A model generated the notes under the pieces. The model was not told where the DNA came from. It saw only the letters and a program-made list of their open reading frames with translations, and made no database searches. From the NCBI GenBank assembly GCA_963383645.1, contig OY726566.1, positions 95,881,321 through 95,945,320 on the forward strand: a DNA stretch of 64,000 bases, in the 5' to 3' direction. Shown here piece after piece: positions 16,582-51,205 of this stretch. The translations under genes and the position numbers were made by a program. The DNA comes from Muscardinus avellanarius (taxonomy: Eukaryota; Chordata; Mammalia; Rodentia; Gliridae). Numbering within the stretch: the first letter of the stretch is position 1; every line of letters starts with the position of its first letter.

Positions 16582-18990
16582 TTTGTGGTACTGGGGCTGG
16601 AACCCTTCCAGGCTACACTCTCAGATCTATTTTATATTTTATTTGGAAACAGGGTCTCTTAAGGCAAGGCTGGCTTCGAACCTGCATGATCCTCCCATCT
16701 CTGCCTCCCAAGCACGGGGATTACCAGTGTGCACCACCATGCCTGGCTTACCAATTCTTTTTAATGTAGTACTTGAGACTCTATTCAGAGCAACACCAAA
16801 TTAAGATATCTCAGGAAAATAGAATTACTGATTAAAATTTTTGATGAAAATAGATTCAAAATTTCTAAACAAAATACTAGCTATGTACATTCAAAACCAT
16901 ATTAAGAAAATTGTACATCATGCCCAAGTTGGTTTTATCCCAGGAAAGCAAGGCTGGTTTAATATATGCAAATCAATACATGTTATTTACTGCATAAATA
17001 GAACTGAGAATAAAAGTCATATGATCATATCAATAGGTTATGAAAAAGCATTTGACAAGGTTCAATACCCATTCACATTAATAACAGTGCAGAAAATTGA
17101 AATAGAGGAAATGTATCTCAACATAATTAAGGCAATATACAAAAAACCCAAATCCAACATTGTACTGAATGGGGAAAAACTGCAGGAATTCCCTCTAAAA
17201 TTAGGAACAAGACAAGATGCCAACTTCACCACTTCTTTTCAATATACTCATTGAGACTCTTGCCAGGGCAATAAGAAAAGATAAGGATATTAAAGGAATT
17301 CAAATAGGAAAAGAAGAATAAAAGTTATCTTTGTTTACAGATGACATGAACATATATTTAGAAGACCCCCCCTAAAAAAACTCAGACTACTGGATCTGAT
17401 TCAGCAAAGTAGCATTATACAGAATTAAACTAAAGAAATCAATAGCTTTTCTATATGCCAACCATGATCCATGAAAAAAGAAATACAGAAAACAATTCCA
17501 TTTACAATTACCTTAATACTAATAAAATACCTAGGAATATACCTTACCAAAGATATAAAAGACCTCACAATGAAACTTATAAAACATTAAAGAAATAAAT
17601 TGAAGAAGACCTTGGAAGATAAAAAAAAATCTTGTTTGCTCATGAATAGGCATAATAAATATCATTAAAATGGCCATTTTGCCAAAAAATGATCTACAGA
17701 ATCAATGCAATTCCTATAAAAATACCAATGGCATTCTTCATAGACCTCAGTCATGAATTTTACATGAAGGAACAAAAGACCCAGAATAGCCAAAGTAATA
17801 AGAATCATGCAGGAGGCATCACAATTCCTGGCTTCAAAATATACTACCAAGCCATAGTATTTAAGACAATATAGTACTGGCACAAAACAGGCACACAGAC
17901 CAATGGAACAGAATAGAAGATACAGAAGCAAACTCACACATTTATAGTTGATCTTTGACAAAGGAACCAAATTCATATGCTGGAGAAAAGATAGCCTTTT
18001 AAACATATATTGCTGCAAGAACTGAGTATCCATTTGTAAATACATGGAACTAAATTCTTACCTCTCACCCTGCATAGGAATTGACTCAAGATAAATCAAA
18101 GAACTGGAAATCAGAATAGATGCTGTAAAGTTATTAGAGTAGGGTATAGGTTCAACACTCCAACATATAGCACAGGTAGTAACTTTAATAAGACCCCTAA
18201 AGCTCAGGAAATTAAAACAAGAATTAACAAATGGGATAGCATCAAACTAAAAAGTTTCTGATCATCAAAGAAATAATAAGAATTTAAAAAGAAAACCTAC
18301 AGAATGGGAGAAGATCTTTACCAGCTATCCCTCTGATAGAGTGCTAATATCCAGAATATACAAAGAACTTAAAAGACTTTATACAAGCAAGACAAACAAC
18401 CCAATCAGGAAATGGGTCACTGAATTGAATAGATACTTCACAAAAGAAGAGAGACATATGGCCAATAGATACATGAAAAAAATGTTCAACATCATTAGCA
18501 ATCAGGAAGATGCAAATCAAAACTACACTGTGATTTCATCTAACCCCAATCAGAATGACAAGCATAAAGATGTCAAATAACAATAAACTTTGATGAGGCT
18601 ATGGGAGAATAGGAACTATTCTACATTGTTGGTTGTGTAAACTAGTTCAGCAGCTATGGACATCAGTGTGGACAGTCCTTTAGAACATTTGGAATGGACC
18701 CACCATATGATCCAGTCATACCATGCTTAAGTATCTTTCCAAAGGGGCTTAAACCAGGGAACTACAATAATATATGCATACCCATGTTCATAACAGCACA
18801 ATCAGCCAAACTATGGAACCAACCTAAGTGTCCATCAACAGATAAATGGATTACAAAATTATGGAAACTCACATAGTGGAATTCTACTCAGGAATAAAGA
18901 AAAAGATTATGTAATTCATAAGAAGATAGAAGGACATGGAGAGCATTATGTTAAGTGAAATTAGCCAATCACAGAAAGAGAAGGGATATG
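14270..18990 (+). pseudogene. L1 ORF2 relic with two internal step-back duplications
   Basis: Endonuclease copy A (about 14,270-14,700) gives RLTKWIRKHNSNICC and VNVYAPNVY. Copy B (from about 14,735) restarts at [20 protein letters not shown] and runs through [20 protein letters not shown] copy 1 holds [20 protein letters not shown] (16,050) and ends near ILFNVVLETLFRA (16,790). RT copy 2 (16,841-17,254) restarts upstream at [21 protein letters not shown]-terminal sequence continues to about 18,960. A 23-bp duplication sits at 16,190-16,237. Frameshifts and stops throughout. Confidence 0.8.
16539..16748 (-). mobile_element. B1-dID SINE (variant-ID subtype) with expanded (TATT)n tail
   Basis: The SINE tail has become a (TTTA)n microsatellite (about 16,539-16,583). 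Then come GTGGTACTGGGGCTGGAACC, TCTCTTAAGGCAAGGCTGGC and the B1 complement ending CACCACCATGCCTGGC. It interrupts RT copy 1 of the old L1. Confidence 0.9.
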
Positions 18991-26939: not shown

Positions 26940-27147
26940 TTTTGTGGTACTAGGGATGGAACCCATGGGCATTCTACCTTCCAGCTACACCCCAAGCCCT
27001 ATTTTTATACTTTATTTTGAAACAGGGTCTCACTAAGTTGCAGAGGGCCTCACTAAGTAGCTGAGGCTTTTAGCAAAATCACAATCCTCCTGTCTCAGCC
27101 AGCCTCCCAAGAACTGGAATTACAAGTGTGCACCACCATGGTGCACA
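26940..27147 (-). mobile_element. B1-dID SINE, antisense
   Basis: GTACTAGGGATGGAACCCAT, TTCCAGCTACACCCCAAGCC, TTTTGAAACAGGGTCTCACT, GTGTGCACCACCATGG. Inserted in the inverted arm of an L1. Confidence 0.9.
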
Positions 27148-27324
27148 CTGGCATATTCTATTCTTGATTATTGTAATTTTAACAGGAGTTGATGGAATAA
27201 CAGTGTCCTTTGGATTTGCATTTCTCTGATTGGTAATGTTGTTGAGCATTTTTAAATGTATTTGTTAGCCATTTGTATTTATTTTGAAAAGTATCTATTC
27301 AGTTTACTTGCCCATTTTTACAAA

Positions 27325-27327
<3 letters not shown>

Positions 27328-27362
<35 letters not shown>
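27328..27362. repeat. (CA)n microsatellite at the L1 inversion point
   Basis: About 17 CA units exactly where L1 orientation switches. In the L1 consensus order this position holds a short ACACACAAT motif, which probably seeded the expansion. Confidence 0.95.
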
Positions 27363-27364
<2 letters not shown>

Positions 27365-27770
27365 AGAGTTTTTCTCAGCCATAAAGAAAAACAGAATTAT
27401 CTTATTTTCAAGAAAATGGATGGTACTAGAGACTATTATGGTAAGTGAGATTAAGCAGTCTCAGCAAGTGCAGGATTATATATTTTCTCTCCTATATGGA
27501 AGCCAGAGAGAAATTGGAAAACAAAACTTAGATAAACAAGGGGAGATACTAGTAGAATAGTGGAAGGGGATTTGAGGAGGATGGTGGTGAGGCAAAAAAG
27601 GTTCCTTGATGAAGGAAATAATTCAAATAATGCTATGTTCACATTTAAAGTTATCAGAACCAATCTCAATATTGTATATGGGAAGGGGAAGAAACATGTT
27701 TCTATAACTCTGAAGCTCACTATGATGTAAATTTATAATGTATCAATAAAAATAAAACTATCAGCCAGGG

Positions 27771-27975
27771 TTGTGCAGGGCACGCCGGACCCCCGGAAGA
27801 ACCGGGGCCTGGGTCGCAGGACCCCGGCTCCCAGGCCAGGTTGTGCAGGGCACACCATACCCCTGGAAGAACCTGCGCCCGGGTTGCAAGGCCCTGGGCC
27901 CCGGGCGGGGGTCGCACGGAGCACGCTGGACCCCCTGTAGAACTGGGGCCTGGGCCACAGTGCTACTGAGTGCCT
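27771..27975 (+). repeat. three 70-bp GC-rich tandem repeats
   Basis: Units start at 27,771, 27,841 and 27,911 (TTGTGCAGGGCAC, TTGTGCAGGGCAC, GTCGCACGGAGCAC), exactly 70 bp apart. Each carries GGACCCCC/ATACCCCTGGAAGAAC and a GGGGCCTGGG-like block. CpG-rich inside an AT-rich region. It forms the 5' end of the composite element. Confidence 0.92.
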
Positions 27976-28018
27976 GATCCCACAACCTCCTCAAACCACA
28001 CATACTGTCTTCTCTTAT

Positions 28019-28074
28019 AAAAAAAAAAAAAAAAAAAAAAAAGGAAAAGAAAAAGAAAAAAAAAAAGAAAAATA
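28019..28074 (+). repeat. A-rich tract
   Basis: A23-24 followed by A/G-mixed sequence (GGAAAAGAAAAAGAAAA). It separates the GC-rich 5' block from the L1-like monomers and looks like an old poly(A) tail now internal to the element. Confidence 0.9.
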
Positions 28075-28080
28075 TCGGAG

Positions 28081-28567
28081 AGGGGTCAAGATGGCCACGG
28101 CAGATGCCAGGATACTGGAGATGCAGACAAAACTTATCCAACTGAACTGGAACTTCTGGAAAAATTCCCCGCAAAGGAGGACTGCTTCTTCTCTACATAC
28201 TTAAGAATCCTGGACATCACTTGTAAGGAGAGAGAGGAAGGCGGTGTTGGAAGCGGTCACTGCGATGGTGGTGGAGACTTCTAGTCAGGAGAGGCTATCA
28301 ACCTTATCTTCTGGAGAAATTACCCCAAACGTTGAATCCTACCATCGTACATTCTTAGGAACACTGGACAACATGCAGAGTGGTAAAAGAGCTTGTGAAA
28401 TATTTGAAATGGTGGAGGCAGTGAAAATGGCATTGGCCAGTACTCAGGGAAGGCAGAGATCTGATGCATTACACCTGGAACTTTTGAAGAAATAACCCCA
28501 GAGGCAGAATACTACCACCATGCACCCTCAGGAATGTGGAACAACCTGCTAGGTGAAGAGGGTGTTT
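28081..28567 (+). promoter_or_regulatory. L1-like promoter monomers with YY1-type motif
   Basis: The shared block TTCTGGAAAAATTCCCC / TTCTGGAGAAATTACCCC / TTTTGAAGAAATAACCCC recurs with its last C at 28,170, 28,326 and 28,499 (spacings 156 and 173 bp), each followed by related sequence (CTACATACTTAAGAATCCTG, CGTACATTCTTAGGAACACT, ATGCACCCTCAGGAATGTGG). Each unit begins with an ATGG motif: CAAGATGGCC (28,087), GCGATGGTGG (28,262) and AAAATGGCAT (28,424). The first two named bases fit the AAnATGGC YY1 core used by L1 5' UTRs. Promoter function is inferred. Confidence 0.7.
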
Positions 28568-29466
28568 GGATTGGAGCCTGCCGAGGGGTGAGGTTGGTGA
28601 TGGGAACAGCAAAGCTGGGATTGGAGCCTGCCATGAGGAAAGGCCAGTGCTGGGGCCTCCGAGGCCAGGATTGGAGCCTGCCAATGGGTTAGGCCAGAGC
28701 CGGGGCCAACGAGGCCAGGATTGGAGCCTGCCATGAGGCAAGGCCAGTGCTGGAAATCCGAGGCTGGGATTGGAGCCTGCCGAGGGGTTTGGTCAGTGCG
28801 GAGGCCAGTGAGGCTGGGATTGGAGCCTGCCATGAGGCAAGGCTGGTGCTGGGGCCTCTGAGACTGGGATTGGAGCCTACTGAGGGGTTAGGCTGGTGCT
28901 GGGGCAAGCAAGGCTGGGATTGGAGCCTGCTGTGAGGCAAGGCTGCTACTGAGGACTCCAAGGCTGGGATTGGAGCCTATTGAAGGGTTAGGCCGATGCC
29001 GGGGCCAGTGAGGCCAGGATTGGAACCTGCTGTGAGGCAAGGCTGGTGCTGGGGCCTCCGAGGCTGATATAGGAGCCTACTGAGGGATTAGGCCGGTGCT
29101 GGGGCCAGCAAGGCCAGGATCAGAGCCTGCCATAAGGCAAGGCCATTACTGAGGCCTCCAAGGCCAGGATTGGAGCCTGCCGAGGAGTTTGGCCAGTGCT
29201 GGGGCCACTGAGGCTGGGATCAGAGCCTGCTGTGAGGCAAGGCCAGTGCTGGGGTCTCCAAGGCCGGGATCGGAGCCTGCCTTGAGGCAAGGCTGGTGCT
29301 GGGGCCTGTGAGGCCTGGATTGGAGCCCACTGAGGGGTAAGGCCGGTGCCGGTGCCAGCAAGGCCAGAATCAGGGCCTCCCATGAGGCAAGGCTAGTGCT
29401 AGAACCAGTGAGACTGGGATCAGAGTCCTCCGTGTGGCCAGGCCATTACTGAGGCCATCAAGAGTG
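28568..29466 (+). repeat. 50-bp VNTR, 18 units, alternating as 100-bp dimers
   Basis: Units start at GGATTGGAGCCTGCC (28,568) and recur at 28,618, 28,668, 28,718, 28,767, 28,817 and then every 50 bp to 29,417. Two unit types mostly alternate: A (TGAGGGGTTAGG...GGGGCCAGTGAGG) and B (CATGAGGCAAGG...GGGGCCTCCGAGG). The true period is therefore 100 bp, broken near 29,217-29,316, where two B units are adjacent. The minus-strand frames of 62-94 codons here are by-products of the repeat. Confidence 0.95.
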
Positions 29467-29842
29467 GGATCAGAACTTGAAATGTGTATGCACAGAGAAA
29501 TATCACAGAAAAGAAAAAACAGATGCTTCCCCTAATTAGCAATAACTAGGAGGAAAGGGGTAACAAGAGGAGGTCGAGTTATAGAAAGGGCCCTATAGTG
29601 AAGCAACTAAGGTGACCAATCAGAGGGTATGGGATGGGGGAGGATGGAACCTCTTTAAAACTCAAGAGGTATGTAAACAAATGTATCAAAGATAATCACC
29701 AATGAAACATGGGATCGAGGGAGGGGGAGGGAATGGGATGGGGATTGGATGAGGGCTAATTGGATGATGTGTGCTTGTATATCCTCTCAAGTCTTGTATT
29801 CCAATGTGATGTATGATTACAATGTACCAATAAAAAAAATAA
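29467..29842 (+). mobile_element. L1-like 3' end of the composite element
   Basis: After the VNTR come a CCAATCAGAGG motif (29,617), a G-rich stretch (GAGGGAGGGGGAGGGAATGG, 29,712) and the terminus GATTACAATGTACCAATAAAA with an A-rich tail. G-rich 3' UTR plus this terminus is the pattern of the older L1 tails at 4,400, 51,190 and 58,560, and differs from the young L1's terminus. Confidence 0.75.
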
Positions 29843-29857
29843 AAAATAAAACTATAA

Positions 29858-29980
29858 GCCAGGCGTGGTAGTGCACGCTCGTCATCCCCGTACTTGGGAG
29901 GCAGAGACAGGAGGATAGCACAGGTTTGAAGCCAGCCTTGCTGGCTTAAGATACCCTGTTTCCAAATAAAATATATATAA
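29858..29980 (+). mobile_element. B1-head-only SINE with TSD
   Basis: GCCAGGCGTGGTAGTGCACG through CCCTGTTTCCAAATAAAATA; there is no ID half. It is flanked by AAAAATAAAACTATA before and after (the latter at about 29,981-29,995). It used the same target as the composite element upstream. Confidence 0.9.
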
Positions 29981-30080
29981 AAATAAAACTATAGACATGT
30001 TTAAAATGGAAAAGAGAATTTCCCGTACTGCATAATTTAGCTGGTCTTAATAATCAACAAAATAACACATGCTTATAATG

Positions 30081-30285
30081 AGGCATGATGGCACACCCCT
30101 GTAATCCCAGTACCTGAAAAAATGAGATAGGAGGATCACAGATTTTCATCTCAGAAACATAACAAGGCCCTCTGCAACTTAGTGAGACTCTATCTCAAAA
30201 TTAAAACAAAAAATAGGGCTGGAGATGTAGTTCAGAGGTAAAATGCCCCTGAGTTCCATCCCCAGTACCACATACACAGACGACT
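30081..30285 (+). mobile_element. B1-dID SINE
   Basis: GAGGCATGATGGCACACCCC, TTAGTGAGACTCTATCTCAA, ID half GGAGATGTAGTTCAGAGGTA and GAGTTCCATCCCCAGTACC. Confidence 0.9.
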
Positions 30286-31749
30286 ACATATTTTTCTTTT
30301 TTTCCCTTATATATAAGACAACAGGAAGACCTAGGGCTTTTAGGCCTCTTGCCTTAGGCTTTAAGAATTTAATATCTTTTGTTAAGCAATTCTAGCTTCT
30401 GAAATTTTCAATGCATAGGATGTAATCTGCAGGCTAAGGTAAAACTGTCATGTCTGTTGACTTAATGACTTTAGCCAACTCATTATGAGGATATTTAGAA
30501 GCCAAATTTCTGTGTGCATACATAAATGTCTAATGAATCTCTCTTCTCGCTCTCTGATTCTCTCTCAGTGCTGCATTTAGATTTATATTTTAATCAGACC
30601 AAGTCAACATTTAATTTTCACTTTCTTTAACTATTGTGTTCAATGAAGCAGAGAATCCATCTGTCTTAAAAATACAGAGAAACTCAAATACAGCAAATAA
30701 AGGAGTCTCAGACATGCTTGTGTATTTTCTCACTGAAGGCAGACATCTTGAAGCCTACAGCATAACCTGAAATAGTTGAACATGAAGAATCATGAGGAAG
30801 GTTTAGTCTTTCTTCATAAGACCATTTTTCTTTTCCTTCCAAGTACTGCTATGATTACTAAATTCCTATCTTTTTCTGTGACTTTTCTTTTCTTTATTAG
30901 ACTGTCATTTAATTTTCATTTATACATATAAAACCAAGTGAGGATTTGAGTTCAACAATAACTGTATCTTTCTGGCTTTTTCTTTTTCCCTCCTTACTCT
31001 TCCCCATTTCTCTTTTTCTTCCCCAAACTGCTTTACACTCTGAATTTCATAGGCAAACTCTGAGGATGTCTTCCCTTAAATTACCTCCCTTTGTTAATGG
31101 CATAAACAAGAAAGCAAGACAGTCTTTCTATTCAGAAAGGGATTTTAAAACATAACCCTCTCACTTTGGTTCATTATAGCCAAGTAAATAGCCACCTGTC
31201 CTACTGTCAAAGCCCTTCTTACTCTCCTAGGCTAATTTGGGTTTTATTCTTTAATAAGAACACAACATCTTAGTCAAATTGGTTTCTCATGGTATGCCAG
31301 ACACACTCAACTTTTTGAAGCTTTTTATGTTCACATAATTTCACCATTATACATGCGGTGTATTCCCACAATTTATCTACTCCCAACTTCCTGCCCTTTA
31401 TTTTTGCCTCTTCAAATACTTTTCAAATACTTTAACTGGGTTAAATTCCATCTTCTCAGTTCTATAATCAGTGACATCAACTCCCACTTCCCACCTAATG
31501 GTAGGATTCTCACATGATGTCTCTATAATTTGTTCTTGCATACCTAGCTCAATTACTCTCAGTGACAGATAATACAGTACATCAGTTGAGAGTTCACCTC
31601 ATTATGAACCAGCTGATATATTCAATTTCTTTATTACACATGTACCTCTATGTAAAGTACATACATTGATCCTAATTTTAATATGTACATTTTTCATATC
31701 TCTTTTTGTATTTGGCAACGCTTCGAGTATGTGGAAAGTACTATTGCTC
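30286..31749. other. unassigned intergenic DNA
   Basis: AT-rich. T/C-rich stretches (30,946-31,040) give a spurious 69-codon frame. No gene or repeat recognised. Confidence 0.45.
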
Positions 31750-31767
31750 TTTTAACTTTGGCATTTT

Positions 31768-34700
31768 TTTTAATTTAATTTTTATTTCCTTTTAAGTGGA
31801 ACATATTGAGAGTGGTGTACATTTACATTGTGCTTCATGCCCTTCCCCCTCCATTTCCCTTCCCCCCAATAGAGAGTGTCCAGGTTAATCATATTGTATT
31901 TATACTATTACACATACTCGTATGTAGCTCCTCCATTGAACAACCTCAGCTTTCTTCCTCTCCTATCCTTCCATTCAAGCTTTGCTGAGATTTCCCCTCC
32001 ATCATCTGGAGTCCCTCTGGTATTACTACTACTCCCTAGCTTGGACATATTAGAGGAAAACATATGTCCCTTCTCTTTCTGTGCTTGACTAATCTCACTG
32101 AACATAATGTTCTCTAGTTCCTTCGATTTTCTTGCAAATGCTATTATTTTTCTTTATAGCTTAATAGAATTCCATTGTGTGTATTTCCCATAACATTGCA
32201 ATCCATTCATCTGTTGATGGAGATCTAGGTTGGTTCCATATTTTGGCTATTACAAACTGTGTTGCTATGAACATGGGTATGCATATATTAACGTAGTTTT
32301 CTGATTTCAACCCCTTTGGAAAGATACCCAGGAGTGGTATAGCTGGATCAAATGGTGGATCTATTCCCAGTTTTCTAAGGAATCTCCATACTGATCTCCA
32401 TAGTGGCTGAACTACTTTGCACTCCCATTAACAGTGTAAAAGAGTTCCTCTTTCCCCACATCCTCACCAGCAATTGTTGTTGTTTGATTTCTTTATGTTT
32501 GTCACTCTGATTGGGGTTAGATGGAATCTCAGCATAGTTTTGATTTGCATCTTCCTGATGGCTAGTGATGTTGAACATCTTTTTATGTATCTATTGGCCA
32601 TTTGTATCTCTTCTTTTGTGAAGTGTCTATTCAGTTCAGTTGCCCATTTCTTGATTGGGTTGTTTGTTTTGCTAGTGTAGAGTCTTTTGAGCTTTTTGTA
32701 TTTCTGGATATTAGCCCCTTATCAGAGTGGTGGCTGGTAAAGTTCTTCTTCCATTCTGTAGGCTTCCTCTTTAGGGGCTTGATGGTTTACTTTGATGAGA
32801 AGAAACTTTTTAGTTTGAAGAGATCCCACTTATTAATTCTTTCTTTAATTTCCTGTGCTTTGGAAGTCTTATTGAGAAAGTTACTCCCTGTACCTATATG
32901 TTGGAGTGTAGATCCTATGCCTTTCTCTAATAACTCCACAGTCTCTGGACTAATTTCTAAGTCTTTGATCCATCTTCAGTTGATTCCTGTGCATGGTGTA
33001 AAGTAAGGATTCAGATCCAACTTTCTACAAATGGATAGCCAGTTCTCTCAGCATCATTTGTTGAAAAGGCTGTCTTTTCTCCAGCATATGAGTTTGGCCC
33101 CTTTGTCAAAGATCAGTTGACTATAGATGTGTGGGTTTGTTTCTGTATCTTCTATTCTGTTCCACTGGTCAGTCTGCCTATTGTTGTGCCAATACCATGC
33201 TGGGTTTTTTTTTTTTTTTTTTTTTTACTACTATTGCTCTGTAGTATAATTTGAAGTCTGAGATTGTGGTGCCTCCTGCCTGGTTCTTGTTGCTGAGAAT
33301 TGCTTTGGCTATTCTGAGTCTTTTCTTCCTCCATAAAAAATCCATAACTGATTTTTTCAGGTCTATGAGGAATGTTGTTGGTATTTTAATGGGGACTGCA
33401 TTGAATCTATAGATCGCTTTTGGCAGAATGGCCATTTTGATGACATTAATTCTACCTATCCATGAGCAAAAGAGATCTTTCCATCTTCCAAGGTCTTCTT
33501 CAATTTCTTTCTTTAATGTTTTGTAGTTTTCCCTGTAGAGGTCTTTTACATCTTTGGTTAGGTTTATTTCTAGGTATTTTATTGGTTTAGAGGTTATAGT
33601 AAATGGAATAGATTTCTTTCTTTCGTTGTGGATTCATTGTTGGCCTAAAGAAAAGCAACTGATTTCTTTAGGTTGATTTTGTATCCTGCAACTTTGCTGA
33701 ATTGGTTAATCAGCTCCAGAAGTCTTTTGGTTGAGTTCATTGGATCTTCTAGATAAAGAATCATATCATCTGAAAATAAGGATAGTTTTAGCTCCTCTCT
33801 TCCTATTTGAATTCCTTTGATTTACTTCTCTTGTCTTATTGCTGTGGCAAGAGTCTCAAGGAATATAGTGAAAAGGAGAGGTGATAATGGGCATCCTTGT
33901 CTTGTGCCTGATTTTAAAGTGAATTCTTGCAGTTTTTCTTCATTCAATATGATGTTGGATTTGGGTTTATTGTATATAGCCTTAATGATGTTGAAATATG
34001 TTCCTTCTTTTCCAATTTTCTGCAGTGTTTTTAACATAAATGGGTGTTGGATTTTGTTGAATGCTTTTTCAGCATCTATTGCTATGATGATGTGGTTTTT
34101 TGTTCTTAGTTCTATTTATGTGGTGAATACATGTATTTATTTGCATATGTTGCACTAGCCTTGTTTTTCTGGGATGAAACCAACTTAGTCATGGTGTACA
34201 ACTCTCTTGATATGGTTTTGAATGTTTATAGCTAGTATTTTGTTTAGAATTTTTGTATCTTTTGTATCTATGTTCATTAAGGATATTTATCTGTAATTTT
34301 TCTTTCTTGAAGTATCTTTATTTGGTTTGGGGATTAATGTGATACTGGCCTCATAGAAGGAATTAGGGAGAATTCCATCTCTTTCAATTTCCCGGAACAA
34401 GTTGTGAAGTATTGGTATTAGTTCTTCACTGAGAGTTTTGTAGAATTCAGCTGGAAACCTGTCGGGGCCTGGGCTTTTCTTTGTTGGCAGAATTTTGATT
34501 GCTGTTTCTATTTCTTTGTTTGCTATTGTTTGGTTTAGGTTGCTATGTCCTCTTGGTTCAGTTTAGGTAGGTTATATGTGCTTAGAAATCTATCGGTTTC
34601 TTCCATGTTTTCCAGTCTGTTGGAGTATAAATTCTCAAAATAGTTTCTAATAATCCTTTGAATATCCCCTCTGTCTGTGGTGATGTCTCCTTTTTCATTT

Positions 34701-50627: not shown

Positions 50628-51205
50628 ATCTCTACTCCTGGGCATCTTTCCAAGGGAATTGAAGTTATAATATAGTGATACAATGTATATCCATTTATAG
50701 CAACACGGTTTACAATAACACTTCTATGGAACCGAGTTAGGTTTCTGTCAACAGATGAACAAATTACAAAACTGTGGCTATACACACAATAAAATTTTAC
50801 TGAGCCATAAGAAGACAAAATTATGACATTGGCAGGAAAATGGATGAAACTAGAGAAGATTATGGTTAGTGACCTCAGCCAGTGTCAGAAAGTGAAGGAT
50901 CATATGTTTCCTCTTACATGTGAAAGTTGAAGGGAGACTGGGAAACAAAAGAGGTTTCAGATAAATACATGAAGAGACACAAGTAGAATAGTAGAAGATA
51001 ATTTAGAGAGGGAGGTGGGTAGACAGAGGAGAGACAATCCTATTTACATCTGTGAAGGTGTCAATACCAATTTCAATATTATAAATGTGGAGGAGGAGGG
51101 TGTTGGACGGGGTCTGGAGGAAAACCCTTCATGTGCTGTGTGCATGTATGTTTCTATTATGCTAAAACTCAGTATGGTTTATGGTTACAATGCTCGAATA
51201 AAAGT
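50628..51205 (+). mobile_element. 5'-truncated L1 3' end
   Basis: ORF2 C-terminal sequence (GGGCATCTTTCCAAGGGAAT, CAACAGATGAACAAATTACA, GAGCCATAAGAAGACAAAAT), G-rich 3' UTR (GGAGGAGGAGGGTGTTGGAC) and terminus TTACAATGCTCGAATAAAAG. Diverged. Confidence 0.85.

Follow-up and report, generated by a model that had tools for sequence, protein, structure and literature searches.

It has been reported that the SVA, LAVA, PVA and FVA elements are mobilised by L1 in trans (PMC4432496), and such VNTR composites have been described as hominoid-specific (PMC4432496, PMC7353768); our search of the open-access literature found no rodent VNTR composite. A second class of L1 products related to the locus studied here is that of chimeras. 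Their description gives 452 Alu/L1 chimeras, bounded by target-site duplications (TSDs) of 7 bp or more and in most cases of sense orientation, and names both template switching and RNA ligation as mechanisms of the sense fusions; for the most part, the L1 partners in this account are often 5'-truncated (U6) or follow the ordinary L1 length spread (Alu) (PMC13174262). With regard to L1 promoters, mouse L1 Tf monomers are described as carrying the YY1 motif GTCGCCATCTTG, and YY1 as binding the human L1 5' end and setting the position of transcription start (PMC11602158). We analysed a composite block of ~2.1 kb (27762-29841) in a window of rodent DNA, the window being the whole 64-kb stretch analysed, to which all coordinates refer; features of the block and its insertion site are given on the + strand. 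With a confidence just short of even, we propose that this block, known from a single copy, is one L1-made insertion from a bipartite template. What is seen directly is its anatomy, the TSD, the nick context, the L1 identity of its 3' end and the YY1-type start of its middle module.

The block lies between two copies of the 14-mer AAAAATAAAACTAT, at 27748-27761 and 29842-29855. An earlier note on this DNA had recognised this bracketing duplication, and the third copy, at 29979-29992, was absent from it. These three copies (starting at 27748, 29842 and 29979) are all that the window contains, and the 14-mer occurred in none of 100 shuffles of the window (mean expectation 0.00). The left copy is located where the 3' end of an older L1 (ORF2 tail at 27363-27494) has its A-rich tail, and the right copy doubles as the left TSD of the next SINE, for which the third copy is the right TSD. 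This SINE (about 29857-29978), which is found at the composite's insertion site and outside the composite, is 7SL-like and resembles other SINEs of the window; an SRP RNA match below the Rfam threshold (29858-29964) lies over it, and we take it to be B1-like. Since the second and third 14-mers flank the SINE, the A-rich site was used at least twice, and the SINE may have hit it either later or earlier than the composite did. The alternative that AAAAATAAAACTAT is simply a common word of L1 tails was rejected, as all three window copies are at this site and other L1 ends of the type do not have the 14-mer. Under a simple model with independent sites, three identical 14-mers make a change of more than about 7% per copy since insertion unlikely.

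The outer TSD agrees with L1-type integration: its 14 bp are within the range of 7-20 bp, the bottom-strand nick context (ATTTTT/ATTGAT) is that of the L1 endonuclease, and an A-rich 3' end, AATAAAAAAAATAAA, precedes the right TSD. The outer duplication had been taken to show that the block integrated as one unit. A single event is indeed favoured by the 14-bp TSD and the ATTTTT/A nick, but the duplication alone is no proof of it, because the site was reused by the SINE and the first 7 bp of the TSD, AAAAATA, are also found at an inner junction. Integration of the block as one unit is thus favoured rather than proven.

We found that the 3' module (29467-29841) consists of an L1 ORF2 tail with its stop at about 29547-29549, a 3' UTR and a short A-rich tail. 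The best local alignment, to an older L1 (73% over 352 aligned bases), placed L1 homology at 29463-29838, starting at the end of the last array unit, and the module matched L1 ends of the window at 72-74% over 312-352 bp. ORF2 was present upstream in three of the four best matches (37319-37079(-), 50894-51203(+) and 5520-5181(-)), with the ORF2 tail of the first of these at 45248-44730, beyond a nested L1; for the fourth, 63687-63378(-), tblastn found no ORF2 match upstream. E values of the four ranged from 7e-29 to 8e-7 (nhmmer). Of ORF2, the composite therefore has only some 85 nt at the end, followed by the 3' UTR, and its array stands in place of the ORFs. Also, tblastn with ORF1 and ORF2 of the window's L1s gave nothing at E≤1e-3 from 27494 to 32058, and the longest stop-to-stop frame in the block (143 aa) runs across repeats and A-tract. 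Both the L1-type 3' end and the lack of an ORF, claimed in the earlier note, were thus upheld, and we infer that the block, like the hominoid elements, depends on L1 in trans.

The window contains several other L1 copies. A full-length L1 at 44673-37341(-), with the 17-bp direct repeat ACAAAGTAGGAGATACT on both sides, has open ORF1 (42555-41560, 331 aa) and ORF2 (41526-37687, 1279 aa; both stop-to-stop) and is possibly young. It splits an older L1 3' part (45248-44690 and 37322-37079(-)), which shares its 3' UTR type with the 3' end of the composite. A second copy, 35782-31815(-), has a broken ORF2 and shows 85% identity to the open-frame L1 along some 4 kb. Among the best 120 of 398 relatives of the open-frame ORF2, rabbit was the best (68%) and Sciurus vulgaris the only sciurid (62% over 73% of the query). 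This similarity is compatible with, but no proof of, the sciuromorph-type host named in the earlier note, a placement that would rest on the SINE type. A comparison of L1 ORF2 with viral contigs gave 11 pattern stretches, none of which was confirmed, a result of little weight for rodent DNA. Besides, a tRNA-Pro call (ARAGORN) at 16661-16744(-) adjoins a SINE match (16750-16633) within an old L1 and is therefore probably SINE-derived.

The middle module opens at 28075-28098 with a G-rich leader and the YY1-type motif CAAGATGGCCAC (28087-28098), which agrees with GTCGCCATCTTG at 11 of 12 positions on the reverse complement. The pattern CAARATGGCSAC, written after both of its sites had been seen, has two matches in the window versus 0.01 expected, one at 28087 and the other being the 5'-terminal site 44655-44644(-) of the open-frame L1. 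Within L1 ORF2 copies of the window there are three matches to the shorter form CAARATGGCS, so that the position at the 5' end of the module counts more than the word. The start-motif word had 0 matches in viral contigs, which carries little weight for rodent non-coding DNA. Three diverged monomers of ~165 bp lie at 28079-28252, 28253-28423 and 28424-28567, with core spacings of about 155 and 173 bp (alignment offsets), and all three pairs scored above all 1000 shuffles. That these monomers are related had been claimed and stands, but the shared opening proposed for them does not: CAAGATGGCC opens the first only, AAAATGGCA and ATGGTGG are found in roughly the same place in the third and second, respectively, and the ATGGC core is kept in only two of the three. 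By analogy, the monomers may be promoter-like.

The middle module thus reads as beginning like an L1 5' end, and with such a start there is no need for the GC-rich part upstream to be a component of a fixed three-tier element. Because it combines an L1 3' end with a YY1-type motif shared with the 5' end of the open-frame L1, 28075-29841 as a whole reads, at the sequence level, as a non-coding VNTR element that is framed by L1 and has a start of its own. A unit framed by L1 at both ends would also be left by an internal deletion of an ordinary L1, in which monomers and VNTR were the 5' UTR of an L1 subfamily with ORF1 and ORF2 in its other copies and both ORFs were lost here, whether or not a GC piece was fused to it. 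Mouse L1 5' UTRs are likewise described as tandem monomers with YY1 sites (PMC11602158), and L1 5' UTRs as often replaced by unrelated sequence (PMC5753468). However, monomers and array were unmatched upstream of ORF1 in two L1s of the window (44673-42556 of the open-frame L1, and an older L1 upstream of 12834), no ORF remnant was found before the ORF2 tail, and we consider such a deletion quite improbable.

The VNTR (28568-29466; 63% GC) has 18 units, all of 50 bp save one of 49 bp, so that the eighteen 50-bp units counted previously are borne out with this small exception. Two unit types alternate in the order AB seven times, followed by B A B B, with the alternation breaking at units 14-15; no more than 38 of 5000 label shuffles reached the score for strict alternation, the types having been assigned by eye, including the labels after units 14-15. 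At six dinucleotide positions of the 50-bp unit, the sequence varies among CG, TG and CA from unit to unit. Unit distances were 0.41-0.46 in these columns versus 0.17 elsewhere in both unit types, values that describe the data and provide no test, since the columns were picked by that very pattern. The CpG decay fits an array that was once CpG-rich and methylated. Divergence from the type consensus outside CpG was about 0.10, and part of it predates the insertion. Descent of the GC-rich, monomer and array modules from one repeat lineage was also considered and rejected, as cross-module scores were within the shuffle range (the observed score was reached by 141 of 500 shuffles for GC module versus VNTR and by 113 of 500 for monomers versus VNTR). 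A VNTR word had 0 matches in viral and prokaryotic contigs, again of little weight for rodent non-coding DNA.

The block begins with a GC-rich module (27762-28018; 67% GC versus 36% in the window), composed of three units of ~70 bp (27762-27833, 27834-27903 and 27904-27966) and a 52-bp single-copy end. Unit pairs 1-2 and 1-3 scored above all 1000 shuffles, supporting the GC-rich 70-bp repeats that had been described, and pair 2-3 did not (its score was reached by 26 of 1000); the internal A-rich tract, likewise described, is present at 28019-28074, exactly between the GC piece and the L1-like start. Pol III A and B boxes, as patterned and with at most one mismatch, were not found in the GC-rich module (shuffles averaged 1.9 and 1.2), AATAAA or ATTAAA was not found near its end, and no tRNA was called in it, the single tRNA call of the window lying elsewhere. 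No Rfam match reached the gathering score in the window, and within 27700-30000 the neighbouring SINE alone gave an SRP-RNA-like match at E≤1. With no pol III boxes, no polyadenylation signal and no Rfam match, the GC piece is supported neither as a SINE nor as an mRNA copy. Its origin as a tRNA, 7SL or pol III SINE was tried and set aside, on the lack of A/B box, tRNA and Rfam match, as unsupported rather than refuted.

The last 7 bp of the A-tract, AAAAATA (28068-28074), adjoin the L1-like start and are also the first 7 bp of the right TSD. This arrangement could reflect two nested insertions, the GC-rich piece with its A-tract arriving first with the 14-bp TSD and the VNTR element then entering 7 bp into the right TSD copy and duplicating AAAAATA, and the fact that the SINE hit the same site is in line with it. 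Such a history would require a minimal 7-bp duplication and, as deduced from the G at 28067, a TTTTT/C nick, which is a poorer L1 endonuclease context than TTTTT/A; besides, chance could easily produce AAAAATA where an A-tract ends. The balance is against a nested second insertion, which we regard as very unlikely.

Another alternative is the independent rodent counterpart of SVA/LAVA that the earlier note had proposed, understood here as a fixed composite family in which the GC repeats now serve as promoter, the A-tract is left over from the founding fusion and all 2.1 kb are multiplied together in an L1-dependent manner. It is consistent with a block that is entirely inside one 14-bp TSD, starts at a GC-unit boundary and has all modules in the same orientation, and also with the order of the VNTR unit types, which is as in evolved arrays, an order reported for SVA/LAVA VNTRs (PMC4432496). 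On the other hand, no second copy was detected within the window, neither blastn nor nhmmer with a 200-bp array query finding other copies of the GC, monomer or array modules there, and the L1-like start of the middle module would be needless in a fixed composite. Comparison of the translated VNTR and GC-module frames with proteins, a weak test for non-coding DNA, yielded 13 and 7 candidates, respectively, and no relative at E≤0.01. Taken together, we view a fixed composite as unlikely. Given the L1-like start and the known chimeras, a fused A-tailed RNA explains the GC part at least as well as a fixed three-tier element does; the GC-rich piece with its A-tract looks like a fused second A-tailed RNA and is less likely a separate insertion.

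In the one-insertion reading from a bipartite template, the right-hand 1.77 kb (28075-29841) would be a non-coding L1-framed VNTR element composed of start, three monomers, 18-unit VNTR and L1 end. Transcription would begin at its own start, and the RNA, having neither ORF1 nor ORF2, would be copied in trans by L1 proteins, with priming at the TTTTT/A nick. The remaining 313 bp on the left, which comprise GC repeats and A-tract, would be a second, A-tailed RNA, presumably joined to the 5' end of the VNTR-element RNA or cDNA by a template switch of the reverse transcriptase or by RNA ligation. The partners of the published chimeras are unlike the VNTR element, which counts against the fusion, and the single copy observed gives no sign of separate movement of the right-hand unit. 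We also suggest, with rather more doubt than belief, that 28075-29841 is a copy of an undescribed multi-copy L1-parasitic rodent VNTR family, an SVA-like solution reached outside hominoids from a hollowed-out L1 instead of from the union of an Alu with a retroviral piece, and that with the GC repeat such an element additionally captured a foreign 5' end. What is newly recognised here is a 3' part that reads as ~85 nt of ORF2 and the 3' UTR of L1, a YY1-type start of the middle module, and a GC-rich piece with A-tract that reads as a fused RNA.

If a rodent family with the SVA layout and an L1 frame exists, it would offer an independent test of the role of the VNTR for an L1 parasite, and would suggest a route of origin for such parasites in which the start and end of the host L1 are kept and the coding body is lost. 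If the block is a one-off chimera, it would still illustrate clearly one way in which an L1 could acquire a new 5' end, and this kind of gain has been proposed as a driver of 5' UTR replacement (PMC13174262).

Among known non-autonomous L1 derivatives, HAL1, which is reported to have arisen several times in mammals (PMC5753468), is comparable in kind; as an identity for the block it was rejected, because HAL1 encodes ORF1p and the block has no ORF1 match. The mouse L1 Tf 5' UTR, compared by layout and motif, similarly has tandem promoter-like monomers with a YY1-type motif, whereas the monomers of the block have no ORFs following them and keep the ATGGC core in two of three. In Alu/L1 and U6/L1 chimeras, a foreign piece is likewise described in sense, directly 5' of an L1-type piece and inside one TSD (PMC13174262). 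The block, too, has two unrelated pieces of the same orientation in one TSD, the orientation of the GC piece resting on the A-tract at its 3' end; here, however, the L1 side is taken by a non-coding VNTR element that starts like an L1, and a GC-rich repeat RNA would be its partner on the 5' side. With SVA, LAVA, PVA and FVA the block shares a non-coding character, a central GC-rich VNTR of about 50-bp units, a foreign 3' end, an A-rich tail and a TSD; the 30-50-bp GC-rich units of the central VNTR in hominoid composites are matched, as a likeness of layout only. The SVA/LAVA-like logic seen in the earlier note is therefore retained for the layout, in which a promoter-like start is followed by a GC-rich VNTR of 50-bp units and a retroelement 3' end, but not for the shared 5' region: the eight TRF rows of 27000-30800 include no 5' CT-hexamer array, the Rfam search gave no 7SL/Alu match inside the block, and the block does not belong to SVA/LAVA for lack of this CT-hexamer/Alu-like region. 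If it is functional, the block would by analogy work like an SVA-type parasite, distinguished from that type by its L1 3' UTR with ORF2 tail, its L1-type YY1 start and its internal A-tract.
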